From contig CM072345.1 in the NCBI GenBank assembly GCA_036874045.1, positions 6,473,501 to 6,537,500 of the forward strand: a DNA stretch of 64,000 bases. The letters are read 5' to 3'. This DNA comes from Cymodocea nodosa (taxonomy: Eukaryota > Streptophyta > Magnoliopsida > Alismatales > Cymodoceaceae). Position numbers and translations under genes: made by a program. This document shows positions 20,403 through 61,734 of this stretch, in pieces. The notes under the pieces were generated by a model, which was not told the DNA's origin, searched no databases, and saw nothing but the letters and a program-made list of their open reading frames with translations. How positions within the stretch are numbered: position 1 is the stretch's first letter; every line of letters starts with the position of its first letter.

Positions 20403-21548
20403 TTAAGAACATGATTAAAAAGTAGAAACAAATGGAATAAACGTGTCAGTCCAAGCAAACTTTTTAGGCATAATTCTTCTTGCTATTAATTCTGTTTTAA
20501 TACCATTCTTGTTCATTCTTAATTTGTAAACTTGTAATATATTATCAATGCTAAATACAAGTGTATTATCGTTAATGAAATGAAATTCCGAAAGGGATCC
20601 TTTTTAGTTTCAGGGTAATGTAGCAGTTTCTATTTCTACATCTATTTCAATATATTCCTCTTCCCACTTCCATTCATTTATGTCTTTCATAATCCATATT
20701 TGAAATTTCATCAATTCGTCCCACCATCTTATTAGACATAAAGTAGGATCATCATATTCATTATACCACATTCCTATTTGAATTTTATCAAATTCTGTAG
20801 ATGGTGGTTTAGCTATTTCTCTTGGTATAGGTAAAATTTCTATATATTCATCATAACTGTCTATGCTCACTATGTATAAATCAGTTCTAAATGCAACTGA
20901 TATATCTGTGACAAGATATATATATCCATCAAGTATGACATGCATGCTGTTAATTAATGATTTTTGTCCTAGATATATCATAGTATTTTCAGTCCAAGAT
21001 CTATTCAGAAAATTATACACACTCAAGCATAAATCTTCATCCCAATTTCCTATAGGTCTCCAATAATATAATTTTTCAAGAATGGTAGAATTTTTATCAG
21101 AAAATATTAAAGCCGACCCACAATTTACAATTGGTACTTCATATCTATTAGGTCTTCTTATATTCCATTCTTCTCTTGTTATAGGATTTCTTATCAAAAT
21201 ATCGGGTAATAGACTTGCATACCTTGGTCTGGTTCTGTATATGATTAATCTTTCATCCATCCCCATAACATGATCTATTCCTTCTAATGTATTAGGTGGA
21301 ATTCCAATAGTTTCTTCCATATTCAGATATTCATGGGTAATTGAACTACGATTAAATGACTTCCATATGAATCCATCTCTAATCTTAGTCATTTTTGCAG
21401 CTTGTAGTCCCTGAAAATATTTTTCTCCAACATAGTCTTTAATTTCCTTTGATACACAACACAGCCTGCATAGATCTTTAGCTGACAAGTTACTCAGTAC
21501 TTCCCTTAGTGCATCCAACGGTAATTGCATCAATTCCATTTTTTGATT
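20403..21548 (-). pseudogene. Element N: F-box protein ORF in the env position
   Basis: About 380 codons, with the first 309 (from 21539) reading open. The N terminus is a clear F-box: 'LPLDALREVLSNLSAKDLCR' then 'LCCVSKEIKD', the usual pattern with which F-box proteins bind Skp1 in SCF ubiquitin ligases. The rest resembles plant F-box-associated (kelch/FBA-like) substrate domains, with beta-rich phrases such as 'ILIRNPITREEW', 'LYYWRPIGNWDEDLCLSVY' and 'DGYIYLVTDIS'. The same ORF occurs in E2 (36184) and O (43286) at the same place in the element, so it belongs to the element and is not a neighbouring host gene. It follows an AG acceptor at 21549-21550. This copy has about two breaks near its end. 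Confidence 0.88.
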
Positions 21549-23097
21549 CTATATAACACAAACAAAAATTTAGCAGAGACAAAAATTAACATAACTACTA
21601 CACCCCCTCGTGAAGTTAGGGCATAACTCAATGAACTAAGTTCGTTGAGTTAAGGACTAACTCTACGATACTATTAACTATAAATAAACATATATATACA
21701 GATAGTTGCTTCAGTTATACTGCTTCATTCAGCTATCCTCCCAAAAGAGGTATCAATTTCATTAACAGTTCTATTGACAAGATTATGTATTGCTTGTATT
21801 GGCAATCCTCCAGTGGGTCTAACTTCCATTGATTCCTTTTGTCTAAGTGGTATGTTTCTATTCTGATTTTGAATTGCAGCATTTCCAAATACAAAATCCA
21901 AATGATTGTTTAATTGTTGAATTATCTTTTCTAATTTCTCTATTCTAGATCCTTGTTCAAGCAATTCTTCATAACTTATATTCTTCTCATTTACATTTTC
22001 TCCTCCTTGGAAATTGTTGTTTCTCCAAGATAAATTCGGGTGATTTCTCCGATTAGGATTATAAGAATTTCCAAAGTTATCTTTTTGGTTTCTAGCATAA
22101 ATAATATCTAAATCATTAATGTTTGCATTCTTTTCTGCTACCTTTTGATTTAATGATAACTCTTCTATTTTCTTTGTTAATTCAGTTAATTTCACTTCAA
22201 GCATAGTACTTGAATCTATTTCATGCATTCCTCTTGGCAATATTCTTTTATCTGTAATAGCTTCAGCCGAGTTTTCCCACTGTGTAGTTCTTTTTGCAAA
22301 GTTTTCTAAATATGCCTATGCTTCTTCACTACATAGTTTCAGAAATCCATTTTGACAAGTAGATTCTAATAAAGATTTCGTTGAAACATCTATGCCTTCA
22401 TAAATTATACCTATTAATTGTGTTTTACTCATTGCATAATGTGGATATTGAGTTAGTAAATCTTTAAATATTTCAAAATATTTCTAGAATGATTCACCCT
22501 ATTTTTAGCTACACATTAATATTTCTTTTTTCTTTTTAATCGTTTGATGTGTTGGATAATATTTTTCCAGAAAAATAGAGCAAAATTCAATCCATGTAGA
22601 AATTGAATCAGGCGATAGAGTATATAACTATCTCTTAGCTATGTATTTTAAAGCAAAAGGGATATATCTAAGTTTAATAGCATCTATACTCATGTTCAGC
22701 ATTTTCATCATTTGACAAACTTCATTAAATTCTCTAAGGAAATAATAGGCATCCCCTCTTTCTAATCCATGAAAATGTGGCAATTGACTAATATAATTCG
22801 ATTTCAGTTCAAACCTATCTCCCTCAAAGTTTGGCAATCGAATACATGAAGGTTCATCAACTAATTCAGGATACAGAATTTCTCCTAATGGTTTTTCTAC
22901 TAGAGTAGCTATCTCTACGTTCTCTTTTAAAGAAAGGTTAGTTACACCCCAAAGAATTTCATTAAAGTCCAGCTCAGAAAATGTTTCAGTACTCCTCTAT
23001 GTTGAATATTCTTAGGTAGGCGTTCCTACTAATCGTTTAGTGCTTAGAGAATGAGTCCATGTACTCATAAATAAACAACAGAAGATTAATTACATAC
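21549..23097 (-). other. Element N: intron-like interval containing gag
   Basis: On the minus strand the interval opens GTATGTAA after AGACTG (23097) and closes with TTATATAG before AATCAAAAAATGG (21549), a plant-like donor and acceptor. It contains the whole gag ORF. In copy O the equivalent interval is missing exactly between these two points. A nearer acceptor (CAACATAG, ending 22997) would instead join the leader to gag. Splicing of downstream ORFs is known for env-like ORFs of some plant retroelements; use in this family is inferred. Confidence 0.7.
21735..22996 (-). pseudogene. Element N: gag (capsid domain), located after pol
   Basis: Minus-strand gag of Retrotrans_gag type: 'RLPNFEGDRFELKSNY', 'FLREFNEVCQMMKMLNMSID', 'AIKLRYIPFALK', then 'EFCSIFLEKYYP' and 'GESFWKYFERFKDLL', and further on 'NRRNHPNLSWRNNNFQGG' as in Athila gag, ending in a coiled-coil part ('RIEKLEKIIQQLNNHLDFVF'). 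In ordinary Athila elements this domain opens the internal region. Here it lies between the accessory ORFs and the F-box ORF, with no zinc knuckle of its own. Broken by a few interruptions. Confidence 0.85.
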
Positions 23098-25748: not shown

Positions 25749-26985
25749 TTAAGGGAGAAGAAAGCATCGTCGTTGATATGAATGAAGGAAATCCAACCGA
25801 CCATTCAAGCAGAAGCAGTTACTACTGAAGAAATATAAAAGAAAAGAAGAAAAAAAAGAAAGGTGTGATCGATGGAAGGTCAGTGTGTGCAGAAGAGGAT
25901 CGGCATTGCAATTCTCTAAAGTACCACACCAACCACCATCATTACCACCACAATCACCAACCATCAGAGGTCTGTGAGGATACTTGCCTGATGTCGGGTC
26001 GATTCTGAGCCAAACACAATGCCTGACAACCACTGTGAGGAGTGATCACGTCGCAGGAAGGGAAGTCATTTTCACCAAGTGTCGACTCATATTTCAGGAG
26101 ATCGTAAAGCTTTTAGCCTTGGCTTCGGGTTGATGCCTGTATGTTGAAAAGGAGATTATCTTGCAATTCTGGACTCGCGATTCTATAGGGAGAGGAGACA
26201 GAATTGTAAGTGGTTTAATTTTTAGTGGTGTAATCGCGTTGCAAGTAGTGTCGGAAGTATTTACTGTCAAGTGAGATTACTTTACATTTCACCTATCGCC
26301 CATTTACATGTTCATATTAAAACAAAAATACCAAAAACAATTTATCTATGTTTGTATGTTGTATTTGAGTGTTGTATTGTTTGTGTTGTATCGTGATTAA
26401 TGTTATCTTTGTCAGTTTTGTGATTGTTTTATGTTAGTTTTAATTTTACAATTTACTGAAATTGGTTTGTTCAAAAGACCTAAAGATTTTAATGGTTACT
26501 GTTTGAATTATCTGAATGTTAGTATTGCTTAATGATAAATCCAATGTTAACTAGCATTAAAGAGCTTAATTGATGTTATTTACAATCTGTGGAATCGCCC
26601 AATGGTTGGCCGAATTCCTCTATAAATAGCAGTATTAAAAAAGAAAAGTCAGGCTCGTGGAGTTAACTTAAGTCCACGAGGTTAGTCCGTTGAGTTAACT
26701 ATAAGTCAACAGAGAGCTTATTGAATATATAAATTTGATTGTTAACAAACGAACAGTTCTCAAATTCGTTAGCAATTCCCTGTGGGATCGACCTCTACTT
26801 GCACACTGATACAATAGACATTATGCACTTGCAGTTAAAATACAAATTGGAATTAATATCTAAATTGTATTAAAGGTTGTTTGTTTACTTCTAAAAGAAA
26901 GAATAGGCATAAAGATAAATTAATTAAGTAAAACAGAAGTAACAAATCCAAGTTTTTCTAGTGTAGTGCTGGGAAAATCCAAACA
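25749..26985 (+). repeat. 5' LTR of E2 (3' half)
   Basis: Corresponds to the 3' LTR from about 39948 onward; U3 upstream of the TATA region is absent. TATA box AATATAAAAG at about 25828-25840. Ends AAAATCCAAACA without the 32-base extension seen in O and N. Confidence 0.9.
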
Positions 26986-26992
26986 AGTTTTA

Positions 26993-27010
26993 TGGCGTCG
27001 TTGCCGGGGA
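26993..27010 (+). other. Primer binding site of E2 (tRNA-Asp type)
   Basis: TGGCGTCGTTGCCGGGGA, seven bases after the LTR end, one transition from the tRNA-Asp complement TGGCGCCGTTGCCGGGGA used by many Athila elements. Confidence 0.9.
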
Positions 27011-27100
27011 ATTGAATTGAATTGAATTGATATAAGCAACTGTTAGAGCTGTTTCGTTTTAATAGCTAGAGTTGTGTGTTTTCTTCTGTAATTGAGAATA

Positions 27101-28870
27101 TGACATATGCTTATGCTCAAAGATTTCCAGAACCTGTAATTAGCATATGTGAATTCTACAATTCTGAAGGACACGACATTTCTGATTGTTTGAAATTGAG
27201 ACATTTACAGATTGTTAGATCCCATGAACAACAAATGAATTATCCTCAATAAAATAGAGCCGAGTATGAGAATCCTATAGTTTACCCAACTAATGGTTAG
27301 TATAGAATGTGTAATATGATGAGAGACATTGAAGTTTGGGATAGCTATGACAGACTAGAGCATAGTATAGAGCAAAATCTTAACAAACTGGAATACTTTG
27401 TGTCAGCAATAAGAAGTCAACCAATTAAATTATAAGGAAGTATATTCAGAACCTAAACAGGATATAATTTATGAAACTAAAAAAACCATAAAGAAAATTG
27501 ATCAAAAATTGAATGCAATGAAATTAGATGATTTGGAAACAAAATTAAAAGCATTAGACAAAAATGCAATGAAAATACAAGTTATGCAATAGGACAATGA
27601 AAATTACAATGTTATAAACCTGCATAATTTGCAAAATATGCAGCAAACATAAAATACTAATGCAAGAGAATTTAAAGAATGCACTTTAAAACTAAAAACA
27701 ATTGAAGATCATAATCACGAAAATGATATACAAAAACATCATGAAAGTAACGAAAATCTGGAAGATGTATGTGTAGTATTAAGATCTGGAACTGATATAC
27801 CACCAAGAACTCAAAATGAAAATGATATGAAGGTGGATAAGAATAAAAATCAAAATGATAATGAAAATATAGTTGAAAATCTAGAAATCATTGAAGAACA
27901 ATCTGAATCTGCGAATGAAGCTAAAAATGATCAAACAAATCAATTGAAAGAAAAAGAGTCTTTGAAATCAAAATCTTTAGCACCTTATCCTAAAAGATTA
28001 CAACAAACAATACCTGAAAGACAAGAGAAAATCAGAGAAATTTTTCAAAAAATACAAGTTAACATTCCTTTATTAGATCTATTGCAGAAAATGCCACCTT
28101 GTGCTAAATTTCTTAAGGATTGGTGTACTAAGAAAAGAGAGCGAAAAGTTCTTAGAAATGTCGTTTTAGCTAAGCAAAGTAGTTCCTTATTTCTACCACA
28201 AATTCCTAAAAAGTTATCTGATCCTAGAATCCCTGTTATATCATGCACCATAAGAAATACCATTCTAGAAAGAACCTTAACAGACTTAGGTGCAGGTATA
28301 AATGTTATGCCAAGTGATATATTTGCATCCTTAGGATTAGAAGGCTTAACTCCTACTAGTACGGTTATTCAATTAGCTGATAGAAGTATAAGATACCTTA
28401 GAGGAAAAATAGAGGATGTCTTAATTAAAATCAAGAATTTTATATATCCTATTGATATTGTAATTTTGGATTCCCAACAAATTAAGCATAAAAATAGTGA
28501 TACATCTTTAATTTTGGGAAGGCCATTTTTAGCAACATCAGGGGGTGTTATAAATTGTAAAATTGGAGTAATGAAGTTAGCATATGGTAATGAGGATACT
28601 CAATTAAATATTTTCAAACCAGAAATGTTTGAAGAGTTAGAAATGTCCTTACACACCATAGACTTTTTAGAGGATGAAGGAGATATGTTAGATGATGTGA
28701 TTCAAGAAGAATTAAATAGGCAAATCAATTCTGAAATTTTAGAAGAAAGTGAAAGCATAAATATAGAACGAGATATGAAAGAAATTAATTTAAAAAATGA
28801 TGATCTTTAGTTAGGAGCTCTAGCTTCTGATGGGCAACATTTAGAATTAAAACATTTACCTCCTAAATTA
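27101..28870 (+). pseudogene. E2: zinc-knuckle region, linker and aspartic protease
   Basis: Begins with 'MTYAYAQRF' and a zinc-knuckle-like block 'NSEGHDISDCLKLR', then a long Lys/Asn/Glu linker with 'LRSGTDIPPRTQNEN' and 'APYPKRLQQTIPERQEKI'. The protease follows with 'DLGAGINVMPSDIFASLGL' and 'LILGRPFLATSGGVINCK', both hallmarks of gypsy retropepsin. The second half (27827-28810) is an open stretch. The 'LRSG' and 'PFPQRLKK'-type phrases are the conserved region between gag and protease in Athila, so only the capsid domain is missing from this end. Broken elsewhere by several interruptions. Confidence 0.87.
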
Positions 28871-29995
28871 ACCTATATATTTCTAGAAGATAAACGAACC
28901 TATCCAATCATTATTGCTTCAGATTTAAAAGAGGATCAAATAGATAAATTAAAAGATGCAGTAAAAAGTTATAAATAAGCAATAGGATGGACTATGACTG
29001 ATATAAAAGGGTTAAGTTCAACTTTATGCTATCACCACATATATTTAGAAGAGTATGCTAAACCTATTAGAATTCCTAAGAGGAGATTAAATCCAAACCT
29101 TAAAGAAGTAGTCAAGAAAGAAATAGTTAAATGGTTAGATAATGTTATAATTTATCCGATTTTTGATAGCTCGTGGGTTAGTCCAATCCATGTAGTTCCC
29201 AAGAAATCAGGATTAACAGTTATTAGGAATGAAAGTCAAGACTTGATACCTACTAAAATTCAATCAAGCTGGAGAGTATGTATAGACTATAGAAAGCTGA
29301 ATGCTGTGACTAGGAAAGATCATTTTCCCTTACCTTTTATAGATCAAATGCTGTGATTAGTAGGGCAAGAATATTTTTGTTTCCTAGACGGGTATTCAGG
29401 GTATAATCAAATTCCAATAGCATTAGAGGATTAAGAGAAAACAACTTTCACCTGTCCTAATGGAACTTATGCTTTTAAAAGAATGTCATTCGGATTATGC
29501 AATGCGCTAGCTACCTTTCAAAGGTGTGTGCAGGGCATATTTACTGGAATGACTGAAGATTTTTTAGAAATATTTATGGATGATTTTACTGTGTATGGCA
29601 ACTCATATGAAGTGCGTTTAAGCAATTTAGGCCAAATATTAAAACACTGTGTGGAAAAAAATCTGGTTTCAAATTGGGAAAAATGTCACTTCATGGTTAA
29701 ATAAGGAATAGTCTTAGGGCATGTTGTTTCTTAGAAAGGGTTGGAAGTAGATAAAGCTAAAATAGAAGTAATTTCTAATCTACCAGAACCTAAATCAGTA
29801 AAAGATATTAGATCATTTCTAGGACATACTGGTTTTTATTGAAGATTTATTAAAGACTTTAGCAAGATAGCTAGGCCTTTAACTAATCTATTAAAAGATG
29901 TCCCATTTAACTTTGATAAAAATTGCAAAGAGGCATTTTTCAGACTTAAAACTAGTTTAATTTCAACTCCTATAATTCAAGCACCTGATTGGAAC
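28871..29995 (+). pseudogene. E2: reverse transcriptase
   Basis: Athila-type RT with 'WVSPIHVVPKKSG', 'WRVCIDYRKLNAVTRKDHF', 'FGLCNALATFQRC' and the catalytic 'IFMDDFTVYGNSYE', followed by the thumb/connection region. Copies DNA from element RNA. Broken by several interruptions. Confidence 0.9.
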
Positions 29996-30000
29996 TATCC

Positions 30001-30420
30001 ATTTGAATTAATGTGCGATGCTTCTGATTTTACTGTAGGAGCAGTGTTGGGACAGAAAATAGAAAAATCTCCTAGAGTGATTCATTATGCAAGTAAAACC
30101 TTTATTGATGCTCAAGTTAATTACACAACTACAGAAAAAGAATTATTAGCTATTGTGTTTGCTTTAGAAAAGTTTAGATCATATTTGATTGGAGCTAAAG
30201 TAATAGTATACACGGATCATTCAGCTCTAAAACATCTAATAAAGAAAAAAGAAACTAAACCTAGATTGATCCGATGGATATTATTATTGCAAGAATTTGA
30301 TCTAGAAATTAAAGATAAAAAAGGTTGTGAGAATGTAGTAGCAGATCATTTATCAAGATTACAAATAGAAAAATCAAATATTGAAATTAAGGATAATTTT
30401 CCTAATGAACAATTAATGAC
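30001..30420 (+). pseudogene. E2: RNase H
   Basis: Contains '[15 protein letters not shown]', '[20 protein letters not shown]', '[11 protein letters not shown]' and 'VADHLSRL', with the Asp-Glu-Asp catalytic residues visible. It is open and continues into integrase in the same frame (30011-31219). Confidence 0.92.
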
Positions 30421-31568
30421 CATTAACACAATGCCTTGGTATGCAGACATAGTTATTTACTTAGTTACTGGTTTAACACCTAAGGATTGGAATAGACAGG
30501 ATAAGAAATTATTTTTTTCAAGAGTAAAATATTACTATTGGGAAGACCCATACTTATTTAAGAAATGTCCTGATCTGGTTTTAAGGAAGTGTGTTCTAGA
30601 AACTGAATATTCGAGCATATTGTCTTTCTGTCATGATCAAGCTTGTAGAGGGCATTTTGGTTCAGGGAAAACTACTGCAAAAATTCTGCAATGTGGGTTT
30701 TATTGGCCAACACTAATCAAAGATGCTCATAAATATTGCTTAAGTTGTTTAAGATGTCAACAAATAGGAAGAATATCAAAGACGAATATGATGTCTCTTA
30801 ATCCTATTGTTGAGGTTGAAATCTTTGATGTGTGGGGAATAGATTTTATGGGTCCATTTCCTATGTCTAATCAATTTAATTACATATTGTTGGGGGTGGA
30901 TTACGTATATGAATGGATAGAAGTTATTCCTACAAAAACTAATGATAACAAAGTGGTAATACAATTTGTAAGAACAAATATATTTACTAGATTTGGAATA
31001 CCTAAAGCTATTATCAATGATAGAGGAACTCATTTATGTAATAGAAGTTTTGAAGCCTCAATGAAGAAATATGGAGTAAACCACAAAATTGCAACATCAT
31101 ATCATCCGCAAACAAGTGGACAAGTAGAAAGTGCAAACAAACAAATTAAATTAATTTTGGAAAAAGTAGTAAATCCTACTAGAACAGATTGGGCTAATAG
31201 ATTGATAGATGCACTTTAGGCTTATAGAATTGCTTATAAAATGAGCTTAGGTATGTCACCTTTTAGGCTAGTATATGGTAAAAGTTGTCATTTGCCAACT
31301 GAAATAGAACATAAAACTTTGAACACTAATTTAAATCAAGCTACTAAAAATAGGAAAATGCATCTAATTGAATTAGAAGAATTTAGAAATGAAGCTTATT
31401 CAAAGTCTGTAAGAGAAAAAGAAAAGATTAAATTTTGGCATGATAGAAAAATTATTCCAAAAAGCTTTGAAATAGGACAAGAAGTATATCTTTATATGGC
31501 TAGACTCCATAACCATCCAAGAAAATTAAGATCTAGATGGGCAAGACCTTACATAGTTCGAAATATTT
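30421..31568 (+). pseudogene. E2: integrase
   Basis: HHCC zinc-binding region ('[13 protein letters not shown]' ... '[11 protein letters not shown]'), catalytic core '[17 protein letters not shown]', 'NDRGTHLCN', '[17 protein letters not shown]' (D, D and E present), then '[20 protein letters not shown]' and a C-terminal part with 'RKLRSRWARPYIV'. It inserts element DNA into chromosomes. One of the better preserved integrases here; few breaks. Confidence 0.92.
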
Positions 31569-31599
31569 AAACTAAAACCTAGGGTTGTGGGGGCATTAT

Positions 31600-32900
31600 C
31601 CGGCAAATCATTTAGAATCTAGAATAGTAGAAATCGGAGCGATTCCGTGCTGTTGTGTAACTCCACGATGAGGAAGATGACACTTGAATTCTGGGAAAAG
31701 GCAGTGGACACCGCACAGTTTCTGAAGGAATCTAAAGAATGGCACACGAGGCAAAAGATCCGAAATACAACAAGAGAGAAAGAGCTACAAAAGGTAGAAT
31801 CAGAACTCTTTAACTTGAGAAAAATTTTGGTTGAGTTAGAAATACAGATACCACAGATAATGGAGACACGAATTAGAGTGGCAACTGAAATAGTAGTAAG
31901 CAAAGAAAGAAAGATATGGCCAAACAATGAAGTAGCCTTAGAATTAATCCAACGTAAGTCCCGGCTCTAGTTCAAAAGACGAATCTGTAGACGAGCTAAA
32001 TGGGCGATCTAGGAGCAAGAAAGGAAAGAAATTTAAGAAGAGGCAATTGAAGAACAGGAGGAACCAACTACTAAAAGACCTGTTCCTGAGGAACAGCAGT
32101 TAGTACCTCAAGTTCAGCCATTTAAGCCGTTGGCACAAGCAAAAATGATGGGGCCTTCGATTGAAGAAGAAATAAGAGAATTTGCAAAACTGGTTCAAGT
32201 TGGGAAGAACCAAGGAGAATCAGAAGATTTGGTAGTGGCCAAAGCACACCTAGTGTTTGATGCACTTTACAAAAAGAGGGTTGTAGAAAAGTTGAAAGCC
32301 CAATATAAAATCAAAGTGGAATAGCATCATGAAGCTACTGCCAGAACTATTGCCAAACCTGTTGTAAAAGGAGATGAAGCTAGTCCTTCAAGACTAGCAA
32401 TTATTGGAAGAATTAAATAGGAAGAGCTAGTACTTGTGGCTCGAAGGCCTGTAGAGCCTATTTTTGTGGATTTAATTTCAAAAGATGAAGAGGAAGAATA
32501 GGCACAACTAATCAGAAAAAGTGCTTGAATATTAGGAAATTAAATCTGAAGTACCAATTTTTACAAGGCCTGTGGAGCAGATTTTTATTAACCTGCTATC
32601 TGATTCTGAGGAGGAGCAGGAGGAGCAAAGACAAGAAAAAAATCTGGCTAAAATTAGTCTGCACCTTGTACAAGAAGAAACAGAAATTAGGGCAGAAACT
32701 GAATTGCCCATGACTCCATCCCAATCTATTACAGAATCAGAAAGAATAGTAACAGAACAGATTGGTAGTTAGGAGGAAGAAGTAAGAGTAGAAAATGAAG
32801 AGGCTGAAAGAAGCCATTTGGACAAAAATAATTTCACAGATTCCATTGAAGAGCAAGAAACTCTTCAGCAATTTATGGAAAGAATTCAAGATAGAGTGGA
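31600..32900 (+). pseudogene. E2: charged coiled-coil accessory ORF
   Basis: Starts with a heptad-rich segment (31647-31970) containing 'REKELQKVESELFNLRKILV'. It continues with 'FAKLVQVGKNQGESEDLVV', 'KAHLVFDALYKKRVVEKLKA' and acidic repeats including 'FINLLSDSEEEQEEQRQEKN'. No family recognised. A coil of similar flavour ('QKREIELQKIENEINDI') opens the SIRE accessory region in element B. Possibly structural or RNA-associated; that is a guess. Broken by several interruptions. Confidence 0.6.
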
Positions 32901-33882
32901 GAGTTCTACCGGCTCACCACCACAGACAGAAGAAGAAGCAAAAATTCAGGAATCTGAAGAGAATGTTCAAATGCAGCCTATGCTAGAGAAAGATCAAGTG
33001 CAAACCCCTTTGGAACAACAAAGTCACCTTCCTAACCCGACTGAAACAACAATTTTGAATGAAGTACACTTTAGTAATCAGGAAGCTTATACTAAATATC
33101 AAGAAATAAGGGGTTACGATATTATCTACAGTAGACCAATAAATTGGGATGGAATGCAAGAAATCAAAGATCTATTTGAATTCCAAGGTCTACTGCAATT
33201 TATATCTCAAGAAAGAGGGCATGTAGTATATGAGAATTTAGTGCCCTGTTTCTATGCAAATTTAAGAGAAGGAGAAGGAGGATTAATTTCAAACGTGGAG
33301 GAAGCTGATGTACAGATAACACTAGAGCTTCTTCACAACATTTTTGGTTTAAAGAATGAAGGAACAATAATTTTGGAAGATACAACAGTAGTTGAATGGA
33401 CTAAGCAGCAAATTAAGAATTGTTTAGCTATCCATCCTGGTGTGCCATTATTAAACAGATTGAAGCATTTAAATGGTAAAGCACACATGGTAGCTAACAT
33501 TCTAATTAAGAATGTCTATCAACGATAGGGCCATGACATAGAATTAAGTTAATTTGTCAAATGGGCCACGTATGTAGTTGTAAATAAGATCCAAATAAAT
33601 TGGTCTGTAGTTTTTATCTCCAAGCTGAAAACAGTGAAGAAGAAATTATTTTATGGAGATTTGATTCCACTACTAATGGTGGACTGTATTGATTTCACGA
33701 AATGGACATCAAAAAGGATCAGATCTACAACCATTTCAGTGAAAGAATACAGGAATTTTGTAGCTGCAGAACTAGTTGTACCTTCTAAAGGAATTTCGGG
33801 AGTAGTAGAAAAGATAAATCAATTAGAGCAGCAATTAGAAAAACTCCAGAAGGAAGTAGATGAACTTAGGCATAGAGATTAA
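32901..33882 (+). pseudogene. E2: plant transposon protein-like ORF with C-terminal coil
   Basis: Best copy of this accessory protein. In order: an acidic/Gln-rich start; a globular part with 'YTKYQEIRGYDIIYSRPINW', 'MQEIKDLFEFQGLLQFI', 'YENLVPCFYANLREGEG', 'ITLELLHNIFGLKNEG', 'LKHLNGKAHMVANILIKNV'; then 'INWSVVFISKLKTVKKKLFY' and 'GDLIPLLMVDCIDF'; and a coil 'INQLEQQLEKLQKEVDELRH' at the end. Layout and phrases such as C-FYANL and the late 'NW..VF' region recall the plant transposon-associated domain Pfam names 'putative plant transposon protein' (from memory). It is clearly related to 57350-57960 in SIRE element B. Function unknown. A couple of breaks. Confidence 0.75.
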
Positions 33883-34611
33883 ATTGTATTGTTCGTCTAC
33901 TTGTGTGAAATTGTATGATGTACTTGTAATGTAATTGATTCATAATAATGAATATAATTTTTCAGATGCAATTTTCATACGTGTTTGGATGTGAAATGAA
34001 CGGAATATATTGAATATTATGTAATTTGTGGAACTTTATGAATGAATATGTAACAGATTTACAATTTGCTGAATGACAGGATAACTGCTTAAAAATTTCT
34101 ACATATTATAAGGTAAAATGTAAATTCTGCTTAACATAAAATGACCTACAAGTTAAATCTCTATATAAGATTTAGATTTAAATGAATTTTAATCAAAACG
34201 ATGCATTAATGACAGAGTTAACGTCAATACAGTTAGTAGAATAAAAAAAGAACAGAAAGGAACTTACGAGAGTAAAACTTAGAAGTTGTTAAGTGTTAAC
34301 TCAACGAAGTAAGTCCGTGGATTAAGCAAAACGGTTATTTTTTTAACCATGAACGAAACTTCGTCGGTTTAGCGGTTACCAAAATTTGAAATGAGTAGTG
34401 GTACACGTACCCATAAAAATAGGAACCACAATGCACATTGCAAGACACGTTCTTGCAACGAGATTTATTCACTTTATGGATGCACAGTATATATATGAAA
34501 CAGAATGTTATTTACGAGTTACCAGCACTTTTAAAAGAAAGGAGAAAGCGTTGGAGGACCTGGAAGGAGAAGCAGCTGATTCAACTTCATCCGACAACAA
34601 ATATTTATTGA
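33883..34611 (+). promoter_or_regulatory. E2: internal promoter-like spacer
   Basis: Noncoding interval ahead of the leader exon. It contains a GGTACACGTACC phrase (about 34400), a decayed palindrome CATTGCAAGACACG/TTCTTGC (about 34434-34457), a TATA-like run (TATATATAT, about 34488-34497) and the leader ATG at 34612, roughly 115 bases later. Compare 43110-43172 in O, where the palindrome is perfect. Inferred to drive a gag/F-box transcript. Confidence 0.5.
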
Positions 34612-34629
34612 ATGGAAAGCTTCAGACTA
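34612..34629 (+). other. E2: short leader exon with splice donor
   Basis: A six-codon ATG-led piece ending at GTATGTAA (34630), a good plant splice donor. Its counterpart in N ends at 23098. In O it runs directly into the F-box ORF with no intron, which is why I read it as an exon. Confidence 0.65.
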
Positions 34630-36183
34630 GTATGTAATTAATCTTCTGTTATTTATTTATGAGCACATGGACTCGTTCTCTAAGCACTAAACGATTAGTA
34701 AGAACACCTACCTAGGAATTTTCATTGCAGAGGAATATTGAAAAATTTTCTGAACTGAACTTTAACGAAATTCTTTGGGGTGTAGCTAACCTTTCTTTAA
34801 AAGAGAACGTAGAGATGACTGCTCCAGTAGAAAAACCATTAGAAGAAATTCTGTATCCTGAATTAATTGATGAACCTTCATGTATTCGATTGCCAAACTT
34901 TAACGGGGATAGGTTTGAACTGAAATCTAATTATATTAGTCAATTGCCACATTTTCATGGATTAGAAAGAGAGGATGCCTATTATTTCCTTAGAGAATTT
35001 AACGAAGTTTGTCAAATGATGAAAATGTCGAACATGAGTATAGATACTATTAAACTTAGATATATCCCTTTTTCTTTAAAAGACACAGCTAAGAGATGGT
35101 TATATACTCTGTCGCCTGATTCAATTTCTACATGGACTGAATTTTGCTCTATTTTTCTAGAAAAATATTATCCAACACATCAAATGATTAAAAAGAAGAA
35201 AGAAATATTAATGTGTAGCCAAAAACAGGGTGAATCATTTTGGAAATATTTTGAAAGATTTAAAGATTTACTGACTTAATGTCCACATCATGCAATGAGT
35301 AAAGCACAATTAATAGGTATAATCTATGAAGGAATAGATGTTTCAACGAAACCTTTATTAGAATCTACTTGTCAAAATGGATTTTTAAAATTATGTAGTG
35401 AAGAAGCATGGGCATATTTAGAAAATTTTGCAAAAAGAACTGCACATTGGGAAAATTCGACTGAAGCTATTGCAGATAAAAAAATATTGCCAAGAGGAAT
35501 GCATGAAATAAATTCCAATACTATGCTTGAGGTGAAATTAAATGAATTAACAAAGAAAATAGAAGAGTTATCATTAAATCAAAAGCTAGCAGAAAAGAAT
35601 ACAAACATAAATGACTTAGATATTATTTATGCTAGAAACTAGAGAGATAACTTGGGAAATTCTTATCATCCTAATTGGAGAAATCACCTGAATTTATCTT
35701 GGAGAAACAACAATTTCTAGGGAGGAGAAAATATAAATGACAAGAACATAAGTTATGAAGTATTAATTGAACAAGGAGCTAGAATAGAGAAATTAGAAAA
35801 GATAATCCAACAAGTAAACAATCGTTTAGAATTTATATTTGGAAATGCTACAATTCAAAATCAGAATAGAAATATATCACTTAGACAGAAGGAACCAATG
35901 GAAGTTAGACCTACTAGAGGATTGCCAATACAAGCTATACCTAATCTTGTCAATAGAACGGTTAATGAAATTGATACCTCTTCTGGGAGGGTAGCTGAAT
36001 GAAGCAGCATATCTGAAGCAACTATCTGTATGTATATATGTTTTTTATTTTTATTTAATAGTATCGTAGAGTTAATTTCTAACTCAACGAACTTAGTCCA
36101 TTGAGTTATGCCTTAACTCCACGAGGGTGTGCAGTAATTATGTTAATTTTTGTCTCTGCTAAATTTTTGTCTGTGTTTTACAG
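34630..36183 (+). other. E2: intron-like interval containing gag
   Basis: Opens GTATGTAA and closes with a pyrimidine-rich stretch ending TGTTTTACAG, an ideal acceptor, right before the F-box ORF. A second acceptor, TTTTCATTGCAG (ends 34730), sits right before gag, so the same donor could serve either ORF. Length is 1554 bases against 1549 in N. Element O lacks the whole interval. Confidence 0.75.
34731..36002 (+). pseudogene. E2: gag (capsid domain), located after pol
   Basis: Retrotrans_gag-type protein, about 420 codons. Motifs: 'RLPNFNGDRFELKSNYISQL', 'FLREFNEVCQMMKM', 'IKLRYIPFSLKDTAKRWLY', 'STWTEFCSIFLEKYYP', 'GESFWKYFERFKDLL', 'LIGIIYEGIDVSTKPLLEST', 'CSEEAWAYLENFAKRTAHWE', then the Athila-like 'NWRNHLNLSWRNNNF' and a coiled C terminus. 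It should form the particle shell. No zinc knuckle here: that module is at 27101, so gag functions are split between the two ends of the element. About three breaks. Confidence 0.87.
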
Positions 36184-37372
36184 AATCGACAAATGGAATT
36201 GATGCAATTACCATTGGATGCACTAAGGGAAGTACTAAGTAACTTGTCAGCTAAAGATCTGTGCAGGCTGTGTTGTGTATCAAAGGAAATTAAAGACTGT
36301 ATTGAAGAAAAATATTTTTAGGGACTACAAGCTGCAAAAATGACTAAGATTAGAGATGGATTCATATGGAGGTCATTTAATCGTAGTTCAAATACCCATG
36401 AATATCTGGCTATGGAAGAAACTACTGGAATTGCACCCAATGCATTAGAAGGTATAAATCATATTATGGGGATAGATGAAGGATTAATCATATACAAGAC
36501 GAGACCAAGGTATGCAAGTTTATTATTACCTGATATTTTGATAAGAAATCCTATAACAGGAGAAGAATGGAATATAGGAAGACCTAATAGATTTGAAGTA
36601 CCAAATGTAAATTGTGGGTCAGCTTTAATATTTTCTGATAAAAATTTTGTAATTCCTGAAAAATTATATTATTGGAGACCTACAAGAAATTAGGATGAAG
36701 ATTTACACTTAATTCTGTAATTCCTGAAATTGGGGTGAAGATTTACGCTTAAGTGTGTATAATTTTCTAAACAGATCTTGGAATGAAAACATTATAATAT
36801 ATCTAGGACAGAAATCATTAATTAACCAAACACATGTCATATTTGATGGATATATCTATTTAGTCACAGAGATATCAATAGCATATAGATCTGATTTATA
36901 CATAGTGAGCATAGACAGTTATGAAGATTATATAGAAATTTTACCTATACCGAGTGAAATAGCTAAACCACCATCTGAAAAATTTAATGAAATTCAAATA
37001 GGAATGTGGTATAATGAAGAAGATGATCCTACTTTATGTCTAATAAGATGGTGGAATGAACTAATGAAATTTCAAATATGGATTATAGAAGACATAAATG
37101 AATAGAAGTGGGAAGAGGAGTATATTGAAATAGATGTAGAAATAGAAACTGCTACATTACCCTGGAATAAAAAAGGATCCCTTTCTGCATTACATATCAT
37201 TAATGGTAATACACTCGTATTTGGAATTTATAATATATTGCATGTTTACAAATTAAAAAGGAACAAGAACTACATTAAAACAGAATTAATAGCAAGAAGA
37301 ACTATGCCTAAAAAGTTTGCTTGGACTGATACATTTATTCCATTTGTTTCTACTTTTCAATCATGTTCTTAA
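36184..37372 (+). pseudogene. E2: F-box protein ORF in the env position
   Basis: Starts after the acceptor at 36183 with 'MELMQLPLDALREVLSNL', the same F-box as in N, followed by the FBA-like domain ('ILIRNPITGEEWNIGRPNRF', 'LINQTHVIFDGYIYLVTEIS', 'IGMWYNEEDDPTLCLIRWW') and ending 'FIPFVSTFQSCS'. F-box proteins recruit targets to SCF ubiquitin ligases. Compared with N it shows the same protein with more damage (about four breaks). The host gene from which it was captured is not in this window. Confidence 0.87.
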
Positions 37373-39058
37373 GCTATGATTTTGTGTGTTTAATGTTGTG
37401 TATTCTACATGTATTTTTTTTTAAAAACAAAATATCAATCCAGTTTGTTGGTATCTGTTCTAGGAAACCAACTAGCTTGCTTGTGAGCCACCAAAGGCAT
37501 AGGAGTCTAGGTTCCACATAAGATAATGAATTATCAATATCTATTAAATGTTATTTTGTTATATATTTTGTGTTTATCTAGGAATGAAAAGTTTTTCAGA
37601 ATCAAAAATTGGAATATGTAGAAGGAGATACAAATGGAACAAGGTATGTAACCAATTACTTATCCTGAATTATAAATCAAACAAAACTTTATTCATGTCT
37701 GCTACAATTACTGTATTTATTGTCAAATCTTTTACATTGAGGACAATGCAAAATGTAGGTATGGGGGGGAGGGAATTAAAGTAACAGCCATGTAAGTTTG
37801 TTAATTAAAGAAATTAAAATGGTACTGCAAAGTTTTGAGGAAATTGAAAATTTTTTATGAACTTGCTGTAACTATCCGATAATTGAAACTGTAAATTTTT
37901 TTTTAAACTACTTAAATGTTATATTTAGAAGGCTATAGAAGATGCTATATAATTTATTATTTATGTAAATCTAGATATAGTATCTTATGTTTTTTCTGAA
38001 GTTCATGAGTTTAACAGTTTACAATTTTAAAATGAAATCAGAATATTTAATGCTTAATCAGAAAATTATCTGAAGTTTTGAAGGAGCTGAGATGTGAATT
38101 CTAGATTAAATAAAACACATATGATTAAAGATACATTTAATTTGATTGATTGAACTTGTAGAATGATTTATTTGTAGATCTTATTAAACTACAAAAAAAG
38201 TATGAGTTTATTGAGATGGATTCATATTTTCAATAAATGATAAAAGCAGAACTATATGAGATTGGTGTTTTACTGCATCTGTATTAATGAAATACGTACA
38301 TATATAGTATGTAATTAATGTTTTGTTTTGTAGTTTTGATTGAAAAAAAAAAAAAAGGAAAATTTTGAGAGTTTATTGACTTGTTTGATCACGAGCCTTT
38401 TGTACTTGAGTAGATAGGTATGTAAGGATTGTTGACCTTAAAAAGGACTCTTGAAATCTGGCAACCTAAGATCTTGATCAGATCTGGGATTGTTGACTGA
38501 AAGCTCGTTACATAGGTACATTAGAAAGCTCTTGTATGATTCAAGCTTGTCAAATTAACTCTTAAAGAAAAAAAAAAGAAAAAAGAAAAAGAAAAAGAAA
38601 AAAACATATACTATTCTGAAAAGATACTAGTGTTTTGTGAAATACAGATATCTTATGAGTCGAGTATATTTTCTGTTATCTAGAATTGTTGAAATATGAA
38701 TCTGGAATTGACTTTTGAAGTTGTTTAATAGATATACAATTCTTTATTCTACTTGTCTTAATCAGATTGAAATGGATTGTACTTTGATTCGTATGTCGTT
38801 GAAATTCCTTCTAGAAATCTTATTGGAAAATTCAGGATTACAGATGATGAAAACAAACGATAATATAATTAACACCTATATGATGATGATATACTTTGTA
38901 TGTAATTTATATATATTCTAAGTATCTTTGCAGGTTGATTATTGAAACATACAGAATATATTTTTATGCTAAACAGAAGAAAAAAAGGGAAGAATTAATT
39001 CTAGCACTTTTAAAGACCAATTAATTAGATCTTAGTTTGCTAAGGGACTAGCAAAATT
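37373..39058 (+). other. E2: 3' noncoding region between two polypurine-like motifs
   Basis: It has conserved blocks near the start (CCAACTAGCTTGCTTGTGAG, CAAATCTTTTACATTGAGGA), then a first polypurine-like motif GTAGGTATGGGGGGGAGGG (about 37755-37773). About 1.3 kb of noncoding DNA follows, with no open frame of note, an A-run (38341-38357) and a purine run (38565-38605). The 1.3 kb is also present in O (46475-47735) but absent from N. Confidence 0.7.
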
Positions 39059-39073
39059 TAGGTATGGGGGAAG
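39059..39073 (+). other. Polypurine tract of E2
   Basis: TAGGTATGGGGGAAG directly before the TG of the 3' LTR; standard plus-strand primer position. Confidence 0.88.
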
Positions 39074-41211
39074 TGTTTAGAATGAAAAAGTACATATTAT
39101 TAACAGGTAAATGATGGTTAATTGCATAATATTTAGCTTATCATATGAGAATTAAGCCATTATGTTATAATTGTACTGTTATATGCTTTAATTGAATAAT
39201 CTACTTAAATTGGGGGAATTAATGTTAATTTAATACATTTATGAACTGTCGGTAAGTTGCAGGCTATGAAATTCTTAAGTATCTGAATTTTCTGATATTT
39301 CGGACAGTTATGTTTAACATACCGAACATATTTCGGATAGTTATGTTTAACAGACCAAATATGTCGGATAGTTATGTTTATATTGCCGAATAGTTATGTT
39401 TTGAAAGAATATTTTATTATTTCCAAAAGTACACATGTCAAAACCATAATGAATGACTTAAGTGAAATTTCGGTGAGTTATCTATAACTATCCGAAATTG
39501 CAGTTGGACATCGGATAGTTATCCCTGTAACTCTCCGAAATCTTTTTTTATTTATAAAATAGTTGTGGACACATGTCATGTTCTGGGTAAGTGACTTAAG
39601 TGGATTTTCGATGAGTTAGGTGTAACTATCCAAAATACATCTGAGCATCGGATAGTTAAACTTGTAACTCTCTGAAATGTTATTTTATAATTAAAACTGC
39701 TGCTGACACGTGTTTAGATCTAGTAGATTTACTCAAGTTATATATCAATGAGTTATCTGTAACTATCCGAAATGCATCTAAGCATCGGATAGTTAAATTT
39801 ATGCACATGTTTTATAGTTAAATCAACGAAGAAAGTCCGTTGAGTTATCTGTAACTCCACGGACTATATATTTTCTAATATGCCATTGTAGCGGTTGCAG
39901 AAACAAGACAGTTGGAAGGAAAAACCACACTTGCACGTATCGCGTAGGGAGAAGAAAGTATCGTTGTTGATATGAATGAAGGAAATCCAACTAACCATTC
40001 AAGCAGAAGATGTTACTACTGAAGAAATATAAAAGAAAAGAAGAAAAAAAAGAAAGGTGTGATCGATGGAAGGTCAGTGTGTGTAGAGGAGGATCGGCGT
40101 CGCAATTCTCTAAGTACCACACCAACCACCATCATCACCACCACAATCACCAACCATCGGAGGTCTGTGAGGATACTTGCCTAATGTCGGGTCGATTCCG
40201 AGCCAAACACAATGTCTGACAACCACTGTGAGGAGTGATCGCGTCGTAGGAAGGGAAGCCATTTTCACCAAGCACCGACTCATATTTCTGGAGATCGTAA
40301 AGTTTTTAGCCTTGGCTTCGGGTTGATGCCTGTATGCTGAAGAGGAGATTATCTTGCAATTCTGGACTCGCAATTCTATAGGGAGAAGAGACAGAATTGT
40401 AAGTGGTTTAATTTTCAGTGGTGTAATCGCGTTGCAAGTAGTGTCGGAAGTATTTACTGTCAAGTGAGATTACTTTACATTTCACTTATCGCCCATTTCC
40501 ATGTTCATATTAAAACAAAAATACCAAAAACAATTTATCTATGTTTGTATGTTGTATTTGAGTCTTGTATTGTTTGTGTTGTATCATGATTAATGTTATC
40601 TTTGTCAGTTTTGTGATTGTTTTATGTTAGTTTTAATTTTACAGTTTACTGAAATTGGTTCATTTAAAAGACCTAAAGATTTTAATGGTTACTGTTTGAA
40701 TTATCTGAATGTTAGTATTGCTTAATGATAATTCCAATGTTAACTAGTATTAAAGAGCTTAATTGATGTTATTTACAATCTATGGAATCGCCCAATGGTT
40801 GGCCGAATTCCTTTGTAAATAGCAGTATTAAAAAAGAAAAGTCAAGCTCGTGGAGTTAACTTAAGTCCACGAGGTTAGTCTGTTGAGTTAGCCATAACTC
40901 AATGAACTTAGTCTGTTGAGTTAACTGTAAGTCAACGAAGAGCTTATTGAATATATAAATTTGATTGTTAACAAAAGAACAGTTCTCAAATTCGTCAACA
41001 ATTCCCCGTGGGATCGACCTGTACTTGCACACTGATACAATAGACACTGTGCACTTGCAGTTAAAGTACAAATTAGAATTAATATCTAAATTGTATTAAA
41101 GGTTGTTTGTTTACTTCTAAAAGAAAGAATAGGCATAAAGATAAATTAATTAAGTAAAACATAAGTAACAAATCCAAGTTTTTCTAGTGTAGTGCTGGGA
41201 AAATCCAAACA
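39074..41211 (+). repeat. 3' LTR of E2
   Basis: About 2.14 kb, from TGTTTAGAATG to AAAATCCAAACA. It holds the U3 repeats with G-box-like ACACGTGTT, a TATA box at about 40027-40036, and U5 dyads at 40850-40945. The frames open on either strand inside it (for example 40010-40219) are not genes. It is directly followed by a copia LTR fragment. Confidence 0.92.
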
Positions 41212-41690
41212 TTATCTAACTCTCCGAAAAGAAAACTCGGATAGTTATCTAACTCTCCGACAAGTCCTTTAAGTTTCCGTTTTGTATTTCTACACGTGGT
41301 TTATTGAATGACCTAACTTTCGGATAGTTATACCTGTAACTCTCCGAAAAGTCCTTTTAAGCTTCTGAATAGTTAACTCCTTAACTATCTGATCATTCAA
41401 TCCCCTTAATTGTCTGATTAAATAACTCTCTAAAGGCTTTGTAATTTTGGATAGTTATTCTTCTAACTGTCCGATAGTATTGCTGCTGCTTTAAACTTGC
41501 TCTTCGGACCTGTAACGATCCAATTTTCCTGTAACTTTAAAGCAGTATTATCTGGAAACTTCTCCATCTATTCATCTGCATGGAATTTATTCTATCTGCC
41601 TTCTAATCTAATCCTGCACTAACTTAACTGTGAAATACAATATGTTTCCTCACATAGGTTTTGCATTATCAAAATACTAGGGTCCTAACA
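41212..41690 (-). repeat. Copia LTR fragment between E2 and N
   Basis: The right end, read on the minus strand, is TGTTAGGACCCTAGTATTTT then GATAATGC, the opening of a SIRE-type LTR distinct from the other two LTR types here. It contains many CGGATAGTTA and TAACTCTCCG phrases, including the dyad CGGATAGTTA-TC-TAACTCTCCG (41238-41259). Only the first 480 bases of the LTR remain. Its TG end touches N's 5' LTR and its other end touches E2, which suggests E2 landed inside it. Confidence 0.7.
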
Positions 41691-42188
41691 TTCACAGCTA
41701 TTTTATAAATAAAAGGAGATTTCAGAGAGTTACACATATAACTATCCGATGCCCAGCTGCAATTTCAGATAGTTATAGATAACTCACCAAAAGTTCACTT
41801 AAGTCATGCATTATGGTTTCGACACGTGTACTTCAGGAAATAATAAAATATTCTTTTAAAACATAACTGTTCGGTAATTTAAACATAATTATCCGATACA
41901 TGTTCGGTATGTTAAACATAACTGTCCGATACATGTTCAGTATGTTAAACATAACTATCTGAAATATTAAAAAATTCAGATACTTAAGGTTTCACAGCCT
42001 GCAACTTACCGACAGTTCAAAAAATGTACTAAATTAACATTAATTCCCCAAAATTAAGCAGATTCTTTAATTAAAGCTTATAATAGTGCAATTATAACAT
42101 AATGGTTTAATTCTCATATTATAAGCTAAATATTATGCAATTAACCATCATTTAACCGTTAATATTATGCACTTTTTCATTCTAAACA
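41691..42188 (-). repeat. 5' LTR of element N (first 500 bases)
   Basis: Near-identical over long stretches to 19440-19935 (for example ACTTCAGGAAATAATAAAAT and the end TTTTTCATTCTAAACA). Its TG end abuts O's accessory ORF at 42189. Confidence 0.88.
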
Positions 42189-42369
42189 GACATCTAAAAG
42201 GATAAGATCAATAACCATTGTAGTGAAAGAATACAGAAATTATGTTGCAACAGTTGAAGTATCTGTACCTTCTAGAGGCATTATTGGAGCTGTAGAGAGA
42301 ATAAACCAATTAGAGCAGCAATTAGAAAAACTCTAGAAGGAAGTAGATGAACTTAGGAATAGAGGCTAA
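42189..42369 (+). pseudogene. Element O: plant transposon protein-like ORF, second part
   Basis: Continues the ORF interrupted by N: it matches E2 from about 33705, with 'VEKINQ'-type heptads and a C-terminal coil ending in the same place. It resumes within a few tens of bases of where the left part stops, the evidence for the nesting. Confidence 0.78.
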
Positions 42370-43285
42370 TTATATAGTTTGTCTACTTATACTTGTATAT
42401 ATTTATATGAAAAATATCTGATTTGATTGTACTGTAATTTATTCATATGAATGAATATATGTTTTTCAGATATATTTTTCATGCGTGTTTAGAATGATGA
42501 AATGGATGAACTATATTGAATGTTATATAATTTATGGAACATTATGCATGAATGTTTAAAAAGATTTATAGTTTGCTGAATGATAGGATTAAATAATAGA
42601 TGCTTGAAAATATCTGCATGCTGCAAGGTAAAATGTAAATTCTGCATAACATGAAATAAACTACAAGTTAAATATTTATATAATGTTTAGATTTAAATGA
42701 ATTTTGATTAGAATGTTGCATTAATGACATATATTTAACTTTATTTCAGTTAGCAGAATGTAGGAAAAAAAAGAAACATAGAGGTACTTACGAGGAGTAA
42801 ACTTAGAGATTGCTAAGTGTTAACTCAACGAAGTAAGTTCATTGAGTTAAACTTAACTCCACAAGGTCAGTAATATAATATAAGGTCACTCTGTTGAGTT
42901 ATCTGTAACTCAACGAAGTTAGTCCGTGGAGTTAGCAATAGTAACCGACATTGTTCCATTGAGTTATCTGTAACTCAACGAGGTTAGTTCGTGGATTAAG
43001 CAGAATGATTATTCTTTTAACCACGAACGAAACTTTGTCGATTTAGCGGTTACCAAAATTTGAAATTAGTAATGGTATACGTACTCATAAAAACAGGAAC
43101 CATGCTGCACATTGCAAGACACGTGTCTTGCAATGAGATTTATTTACTTTATGGATGTGCATTATATATATAGAACAGAATGTTATTTACGAGTTACTAG
43201 CACTTTTGAAAGAAAGGAGAATGCGTTGGGGAACTAGAAGTAGAAGTAGCTGATTCGACTTCATCCGTCAACAAATATTTACTGA
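42370..43285 (+). promoter_or_regulatory. Element O: internal promoter-like spacer with palindrome
   Basis: Best preserved copy of this spacer. It holds several GTTGAGTTATCTGTAACTCAAC dyads (about 42820-43000), then a perfect 26-base palindrome at 43110-43135 with arms CATTGCAAGACAC / GTGTCTTGCAATG centred on the G-box CACGTG, then a TATA run (TATATATA, 43163-43172), then the leader ATG at 43286. A core promoter roughly 115 bases upstream of the leader is plausible; unproven. Confidence 0.55.
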
Positions 43286-44449
43286 ATGGAAAGCTTTAGA
43301 CTGAATCAACAAATGGAATTGATGCAATTATCGCTAGATGCACTAAGGAAAGTACTGAGTAACTTGTCAGCTAAAGATTTGTGTAGGTTGTGTTGTGTAT
43401 CAAAGGAAATTAAAGACTGTGTTAGAGAAAAATATTTTCAAGGACTACAAGCTGCAAAAATGACTAAGACTAGAGATGGATTCATATGGAAGTCATTTAA
43501 TCGTAGTTCAATTAGCCATGAGTATCTGAATATGGAAGAAACTATTGGAATTCCACCCAATACATTAGAAGGAATAGATCATATTATGGAGATGGATGAA
43601 GGATTAATTATATACAAGACCAAACCAAGGTATGCAATTCTATTACTTGATATTTTGATCAGAAATCCTATCACAAGAGAAGAATGGAATATAGGAAGAC
43701 CTAATAGATATGAAGTACTAACTAAAAATTGTGGGTCGGCTCTAATATTTTCTGATAAAAATTCGACCATTCCTAAAAAATTATATTATTGGAGACCTAT
43801 AGGAAATTGGGATGAAGATTTATGCTTGAGTGTGTATAATTTTCTGAATAGATCTTGGACTGAAAACACTATGATATATCTAGGACAGAAATCATTAATT
43901 AACAGCATGCATGTCATACTTGATGGATATATATATCTAGTCACAGATATATCAATTGCATTTAGATCTAATTTATACATAGTAAGCATAGATAGTTATG
44001 ATGAATATATAGAAATTTTGCCTATATCGAGAAAAATAGCTAAACCACCATCTGCAGAATTTGATAAAATTCAAATAGGGATGTGGTATAATGAATATGA
44101 TGATCCTACTTTATGTTTGATAAGATGGTGGGATGAATTGATGAAATTTTAAATATGGATTATGAAAGACATAAATGAATGGAAGTGGGAAGAGGAATAT
44201 ATTGAAATAGATGTAGAAATAGAAACTGCTACATTATCCTAGAACTGAAAGGGATCCCTTTCTGCATTTCATTTCATTAATGGTAATACACTTGTATTTA
44301 GCATTGATAATATACTACAAGTTTACAAATTAAGAAGGAACACGAACTATATTAAAACAGAATTAATAGCAAGAAGAATTATGCCTAAAAAGTTTGCTTG
44401 GACTGACTCGTTTATTCCATTTGTTTCTACTTTTCAATCATGTTCTTAA
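43286..44449 (+). pseudogene. Element O: F-box protein ORF, intronless form
   Basis: Opens with the six leader codons found separately upstream of gag in E2 and N, running straight into the F-box ORF. The F-box ('MELMQLSLDALRKVLSNLSA') and FBA-like domain ('ILIRNPITREEWNIGRPNRY', 'NSMHVILDGYIYLVTDIS') follow, open to 44152, and the tail ends in the same C-terminal phrase. No gag lies between leader and F-box, so this copy looks derived from a spliced RNA. About two to three breaks. It is the copy most similar to N. Confidence 0.87.
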
Positions 44450-61640: not shown

Positions 61641-61734
61641 CTGTCAAGATAGAGAGTGTAAGGGGTGTTGTCTGCATTCTTTAGGAGCACTCAATGGTTG
61701 GACAAATTTAGATGCAAACAACTATAATGAACAT
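61641..61734. other. Unassigned short interval
   Basis: Somewhat less AT-rich DNA between the old LTR and the solo SIRE LTR. Too short to assign; no gene evidence. Confidence 0.3.

Follow-up and report, generated by a model that had tools for sequence, protein, structure and literature searches.

Why an F-box gene should lie repeatedly inside the same long terminal repeat (LTR) retrotransposon is a question raised by a stretch of 64,000 nucleotides from Cymodocea nodosa (assembly GCA_036874045.1, contig CM072345.1, positions 6,473,501 to 6,537,500, forward strand), which is called the window below. A scan of the window and alignment found three copies, named N, E2 and O, of one 379-codon F-box open reading frame (ORF), part of which is similar to the F-box associated (FBA) type:

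20403..21548, minus strand: F-box/FBA-like ORF, copy N; open over 309 amino acids, with stops thereafter
36184..37372, plus strand: F-box/FBA-like ORF, copy E2; 36184 is the first position of exon 2, which has an internal ATG at 36193; damaged
43286..44449, plus strand: F-box ORF, copy O; a re-inserted spliced form without gag, leader codons 43286-43303 being joined to exon 2 from 43304

The explanation which we favour, with a probability of roughly 0.7, is that these copies belong to an abundant Ty3/gypsy element of about 17 kb, which has pol first and carries a resident, spliced F-box gene whose product would act via the SKP1-cullin-F-box (SCF) ubiquitin ligase.

The presence of the same F-box ORF in N, E2 and O, which had been proposed in a preliminary description of the window, was confirmed. 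The Pfam family PF00646 was found above its cut-off at the N-terminus of N (E 6.3e-10) and O (E 6.2e-9) as well as of two further genomic copies, L028 (E 2.2e-8) and L079 (E 4e-11), and the N and O proteins are 91% identical. Two pieces of E2 that begin past the F-box domain gave no family in the Pfam scan. The genome (374.6 Mb in 28 contigs) holds matches far beyond the window and far above chance: a first look gave 6485 candidates, of which at least 128 were scored; the query itself excepted, these were 89-94% identical in amino acid sequence over nearly the whole query. The element itself is very abundant, since its unspliced splice donor was found at 2621 genomic places and its control at none (up to 3 mismatches were allowed in this and the following junction counts unless stated otherwise, and the reversed sequence served as the control).

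The ORF proved to be retained in most copies of the element. Among copies picked by gag only (the first 20 places past the query's own in a ranked list of 150, mostly of the E type of the window), 18 carry the F-box along its length close behind gag; the exceptions are L035, whose F-box breaks off after 40 nt, and L043, which lacks it. Ten copies picked by the F-box, chosen from high-ranking plus-strand places, were mapped 13 kb upstream and 7 kb downstream using pieces of the window. Gag sequence lies directly upstream of the F-box in all ten, and the R region or the LTR follows downstream in nine, L010 being cut by an inverted LTR. The ORF is therefore neither missing from the other copies of the family nor found mostly outside LTR pairs, the two situations that the preliminary description had named as contrary to a resident gene.

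Copies of an element decay after insertion; changes private to one copy are thus approximately neutral, whereas shared changes reflect the life of the lineage. In a set of 54 copies (mean nucleotide identity 0.925; the two gag-picked places without the F-box and duplicate places were omitted), the ratio of replacement to silent changes (N/S) fell from 3.97 for private changes to 2.94 for those found in two copies, 2.12 for 3-5 copies and 1.79 for six or more. The difference between private changes and those in six or more copies was significant (p 0.0004; transversions alone, p 0.03), and so was that between changes in 1-2 and in three or more copies when methylation-prone transitions were masked (p 0.016), whereas the decrease in stops, taken by itself, was not (p 0.15). 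Private transversions gave an N/S of 5.75 versus 5.77 expected under uniform mutation. The F-box behaves like gag in this respect: in 16 copies it showed 141N/50S private (2.82) and 29N/32S among changes common to at least three copies (0.91), the corresponding values for gag in 15 copies being 127/44 (2.89) and 18/20 (0.90). The fall was less clear for protease, reverse transcriptase (RT)/RNase H and integrase, for which 7-8 copies gave noisy shared counts of 10/5, 10/3 and 8/5, respectively. Indels common to two or more copies were multiples of three in 3/3 cases in the ORF and 5/28 in the flanks (private indels, 3/12 and 19/49, respectively). The net dN/dS between the older subfamilies, calculated with hand-picked copies (both C, 11 of 18 E and 11 of 34 N), was 0.20 for C-N and 0.37 for C-E. 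A value near 1 along the whole lineage, which the preliminary description had considered as the mark of a passenger, was not observed; the third pair, E-N, departs from the other two (see below).

These results bear on the possibility that a host F-box gene was captured once and has since been copied along passively, without function. Many copies do hold stops, and the E-N pair could be read in the same sense. On the other hand, private changes look neutral and shared ones do not, shared frameshifts are absent from the ORF and common in the flanks, the other two pairs have low net dN/dS, and the ORF was retained in nearly all of the gag-picked copies. Unless the sampling misleads, passive carriage is refuted, and we consider it very improbable. 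The F-box ORF is a resident gene of the element under purifying selection, present in most copies and under constraint, with the E-N pair as an exception. The retention, the gag sequence upstream of it in every mapped copy and the three signals of selection agree with the earlier claim that it is a functional part of the element.

Several observations nevertheless weigh against the proposed reading. All of the window copies are damaged: counted in codons of L028, stops occur at 311, 313 and 376 in N, at 43 and 291 in E2, which also has three broken codons, and at 281, 311 and 313 in O, which has two broken codons. At several codons, stops recur across separate branches of the tree. The net dN/dS of the E-N pair is 0.70, and the fixed differences between E and N are rich in replacements (L032 and L047 being excluded, 25N/5S at a threshold of 0.9 and 43N/17S at 0.7), so constraint has not been uniform, and the E branch has changed fast, by relaxed or positive selection. 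The C-terminal half matched the NCBIfam family TIGR01640 (F-box associated) with E 6.6e-7 in L028 and 2.7e-6 in L079, although the corresponding 28.9 and 26.9 bits are below the curated cut-off of 37.9, and PF07734 matched the element protein with E 0.055. Structure prediction from two of the window copies was too poor for use (mean predicted local distance difference test score 32.7), and a comparison of the element protein with the PDB sequences gave no match. Finally, neither genome nor protein searches found a parent F-box gene in the host.

In the two F-box protein searches, none of 579 candidates reached E ≤ 1e-3 and none of 3729 reached E ≤ 10. The database does hold plant proteins, because the 7985 pol relatives retrieved from it were mostly from plants, as judged from those named among the 120 listed; distant host F-box genes may escape the protein search, since it requires shared 5-residue words. 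The FBA_3 profile matched nothing in the genome and nothing in 14 control genomes either and was thus uninformative. The genome search with PF00646 scored 150 of 4219 candidates, three of which (L077, L078 and L079) were inspected. L077 is a host-type F-box gene whose similarity to the element protein is at chance level (best tblastn E 0.39). L078 and L079 represent a third, more distant subfamily of the element F-box, with 82-85% amino acid identity to L028, and L079 has an uninterrupted reading frame of 378 codons. The combination of an F-box with an FBA-like half suggests a plant F-box gene as the source, rather than descent from polerovirus P0.

How such a gene, lying behind gag, could be read is suggested by sequences upstream of E2:

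34488..34496, plus strand: TATATATAT motif, a possible internal promoter
34612..34629, plus strand: leader codons MESFRL preceding the splice donor; splicing puts them in frame with either gag or the F-box
34630..36183, plus strand: intron GTATGT...TTTTACAG, which contains gag and would be removed for the F-box RNA; its junction is seen in O, L063 and 190 genomic places
34630..34730, plus strand: putative 101-bp intron joining the leader to gag; indicated by the reading frame and one exact genomic junction

The preliminary description placed the ORF after gag, which holds for N and E2; O, however, has no gag. In O, the leader (equivalent to 34629) jumps to the F-box exon (equivalent to 36184) exactly at a GT-AG intron, with ATGGAAAGCTTTAGACTG before the junction and AATCAACAAATGG after it. 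In the unspliced E2, the two sides lie 1554 bp apart, and the gap, which starts with GTATGT at 34630 and ends with TTTTACAG at 36183, holds gag. L063 makes the same jump with its own letters. Altogether, the spliced leader/F-box junction was found at 190 genomic places (control, 0). The donor GTATGT was present in 12/12 unspliced copies covering it, and ATGGAAAG of the leader was kept in 13/13 covering copies. At the F-box acceptor, the 54 aligned copies have AG in 40 and AA in 10 cases, CG in L016 and CT in L042, the remaining O and L063 being spliced. Upstream of eight spliced copies, at 5.3-5.9 kb, pol was found in four, X in one, an LTR in one and nothing recognised in two, and at least some spliced copies are therefore otherwise long elements.

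The reading frames agree with this arrangement. MESFRL continues without a change of frame into the F-box (NRQMELMQ in E2), the unspliced leader frame stops after three more codons, and over the 101-bp gap, with an acceptor at 34730, the leader reads in frame into gag (RNIEKFSEL). The leader/gag junction gave one exact genomic match (2 mismatches allowed; control, 0), so this putative splice rests mainly on the frame. The TATATATAT motif lies about 120 nt before the leader ATG and is present in 12/13 covering copies. We also considered L014, in which the LTR is joined to ORF1, as evidence of a second intron; the LTR end lies there beside ORF1 without a primer site, which is more likely a nested insertion.

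The junctions might alternatively derive from a single chance deletion that was later amplified, with no splicing involved. One junction form does dominate among 100 listed of the 190, and amplification of spliced copies therefore likely adds to this count. However, the cut is made exactly at GTATGT...ACAG and the product is in frame; several junction forms exist among the 100 listed, with either A or G at the position before the cut and also within exon 2, matching the A/G variation of unspliced donors and acceptors; and the F-box tree places O and L063 on separate branches. A chance deletion is accordingly a very improbable source. The F-box appears to be read from a spliced RNA, known to us from its junctions in the genome, and this retrovirus-like splicing of a carried F-box gene hints that the element steers the disposal of host proteins.

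The order of parts in the element is LTR, primer site, protease-like domain, RT, RNase H, integrase, X/ORF1, gag, F-box, R, polypurine tract and LTR. In the window, element E spans 25752 to 41211 and has the same order:

25752..26985, plus strand: 5' LTR, its first part missing; 95% identical to the 3' LTR
26993..27010, plus strand: primer binding site, tRNA-Asp type; 1 mismatch of 18, 0 expected by chance
27827..31570, plus strand: pol (protease-like, RT, RNase H, integrase), upstream of gag; damaged
32818..33528, plus strand: ORF1, between pol and gag; no clear family (Transposase_32 with E 0.08 only)
34731..36002, plus strand: gag exon and ORF; Retrotrans_gag at 34725-35279, E 6.8e-14
39061..39073, plus strand: polypurine tract, directly before the TG of the LTR
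39074..41211, plus strand: 3' LTR, from sequence comparison and mapping

The F-box ORF was rightly said to precede the polypurine tract, which in the element containing E2 abuts the start of the LTR; the comparison of its place with that of env in other retroelements needs to be changed, because pol comes first here and both gag and the F-box follow it. Nested and truncated copies might be suspected of producing such an order, as the window is heavily nested and two of the ten mapped copies (L013 and L017) have no pol within 13 kb upstream. Pol was, however, found upstream of gag in the other eight, ending 5.35-5.40 kb before the F-box in six of them, and within 7 kb downstream of the F-box in none of the ten. 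Moreover, the element containing L027 and L028 is bounded by matching LTRs with TG...CA ends, whose compared parts are 93.0% (1302 positions) and 95.8% (755 positions) identical, and shows the 5-bp duplication AGTAG (by eye; the duplication was checked in this one copy). An artefact of nesting is thus hardly credible as the origin of the pol-first order.

By its LTRs of about 2.1 kb, target duplication, primer site and polypurine tract, and by RT (RVT_1, E 1.6e-22) and RNase H (RT_RNaseH, E 3.9e-36) located before integrase (rve, E 4.2e-15), the element is a Ty3/gypsy LTR retrotransposon; the protease-like match was weak and below the cut-off. The primer sites in the window have 1 and 2 mismatches of 18 to a motif which we take to be of the tRNA-Asp type. 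The lineage is probably Athila, as proposed in the preliminary description. The primer site agrees with this, although gag before pol in one ORF, which is customary for this lineage but not strictly defining, is not seen here. Athila elements may further have an env-like ORF after pol; ORF1 holds that position in the present element and belongs to no clear family. None of the close plant RTs (58-71% identical, among 120 listed of 7985) was named Athila. The region before gag was also examined as a possible old LTR; it shares with the LTR only a 56-nt match (75%, E 1.6e-5), which is insufficient. A short sequence of some 40-56 nt is repeated, with 75-78% identity, ahead of gag (33968-34640), ahead of the F-box (36071-36111) and in the LTR (at about 39788-39843), and is perhaps a shared control element.

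Among the closest known systems are the Athila, Calypso and Diaspora elements. Diaspora, like the Calypso group, uses a tRNA-Asp primer, and it has a single gag-pol ORF with gag first (PMC1142308), so the order in the C. nodosa element departs from the custom of the lineage. Long LTRs with TG...CA ends, a primer site of the tRNA-Asp type just past the LTR, Retrotrans_gag and the order RT-RNase H-integrase are features that the C. nodosa element shares with this lineage, and some of the relatives carry an extra gene after pol (PMC1142308). In contrast to Diaspora, pol here precedes ORF1, gag and the F-box, and the extra gene encodes an F-box protein read by splicing. The authors of the Diaspora study proposed that reverse transcription of packaged spliced RNA could lose a gene in one step (PMC1142308); the 190 junctions look like such a loss, gag being the lost gene.

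Plant LTR retrotransposons with additional ORFs have been reviewed (PMC7264820), and a screen of 121 angiosperm genomes found 15 extra domains and an m6A (N6-methyladenosine) demethylase in orchid elements; one section names PMD, G-patch, AIR1, 2-ODD and others, F-box not being among them (PMC9289625). Elements of this kind, as far as these sources describe them, resemble the present one in that most copies of the family have a gene of host type as a fixed part, on the sense strand and before the 3' LTR. The term F-box is absent from the main text of the paper on Retand (PMC11963269). In Thlaspi arvense, an F-box retrogene lies beside LTR sequence and was called an LTR-gene (PMC8764390). In both cases, an F-box gene was duplicated via LTR elements; that of T. 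arvense is described as a host gene arising from retroduplication, whereas here the F-box is a standing part of an element family. Spliced gag RNAs were described for EVADE (shGAG; PMC8892269) and BARE (PMC3735527). These likewise separate the gag output from the full-length RNA by splicing; the main spliced form here removes gag and would yield an accessory protein, and spliced copies were re-inserted. The literature searched, which excluded most subscription papers, gave no report of an F-box in an LTR element and none of the pol-before-gag order in such an element; for an internal promoter plus spliced gag in Athila, it gave Sirevirus papers only.

The following mechanism is proposed. In an abundant element of about 17 kb, arranged as LTR, primer site, pol, ORF1, leader, gag, F-box, polypurine tract and LTR, the donor after the six leader codons is joined to the acceptor immediately ahead of the F-box, gag being excised, and the resulting F-box RNA was at times itself reverse transcribed and inserted, as the genomic junctions show. 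The same donor may join the acceptor 101 nt further on, so that the leader would also start Gag. The spliced mRNA would be translated, the F-box half of the protein would bind host SKP1 and join the cullin, and the C-terminal half would pick a target, which would be degraded. The element would thus supply its own SCF substrate receptor, and this role in the host SCF ubiquitin ligase is the most likely one for the F-box protein, judging from its domains. Our guess at the target is a host restriction or silencing protein in the first place and the element's own Gag or Pol in the second.

Each of these targets corresponds to a more specific model. The polerovirus protein P0 reportedly has an F-box-like motif and acts on AGO1; P0 and the present protein are alike in that a replicating parasite encodes an F-box-type protein, and differ in that the latter belongs to a retroelement and has an FBA-like half. 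By this analogy alone, the element protein might mark an RNA-silencing factor, for example AGO1, for degradation. An arms race could account for the rapid change between E and N, but so can relaxed constraint, and we regard this form of counter-defence as rather unlikely. Similarly doubtful is self-regulation, in which the F-box protein would set the turnover of Gag or Pol, for example balancing the two in a pol-before-gag genome; the shared leader exon and the opposite splice choice tie the F-box to the gag output and are consistent with it. Lentiviral Vif and Vpx are element-encoded adaptors to a host cullin ubiquitin ligase and are made from spliced RNA. A broader scenario, which we put forward only tentatively, would combine a pol-first genome and an internal promoter with a shared leader for which splicing offers two partners, gag or a captured host F-box receptor, the ubiquitin ligase being turned on host defence as in a plant counterpart of Vif and Vpx. 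The likeness is one of working only, and no relation by descent is claimed.

Other repeats were noted in the window. ORF pieces at 52116-53519 (plus strand) resemble Ty1/copia RT, and a short ORF at 60075-60383 (minus strand) resembles the end of a hAT-type transposase, both by eye only. A second repeat family occupies 2191-6826 and 55323-62942 in inverted arrangement; its copies are 80-85% identical and have ORF1-like frames of their own.

Few retroelement families are known to have made a regulatory gene of the host one of their permanent components, and an F-box receptor would tie a very abundant element to the ubiquitin system of its host. The pol-before-gag layout raises the question of how Gag stays in excess over Pol. 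The re-inserted spliced copies would exemplify the route of gene loss that was proposed by the Diaspora authors (PMC1142308). Since the genome preserves these fossils of splicing, expression of the accessory gene can be checked via the RNA junction.

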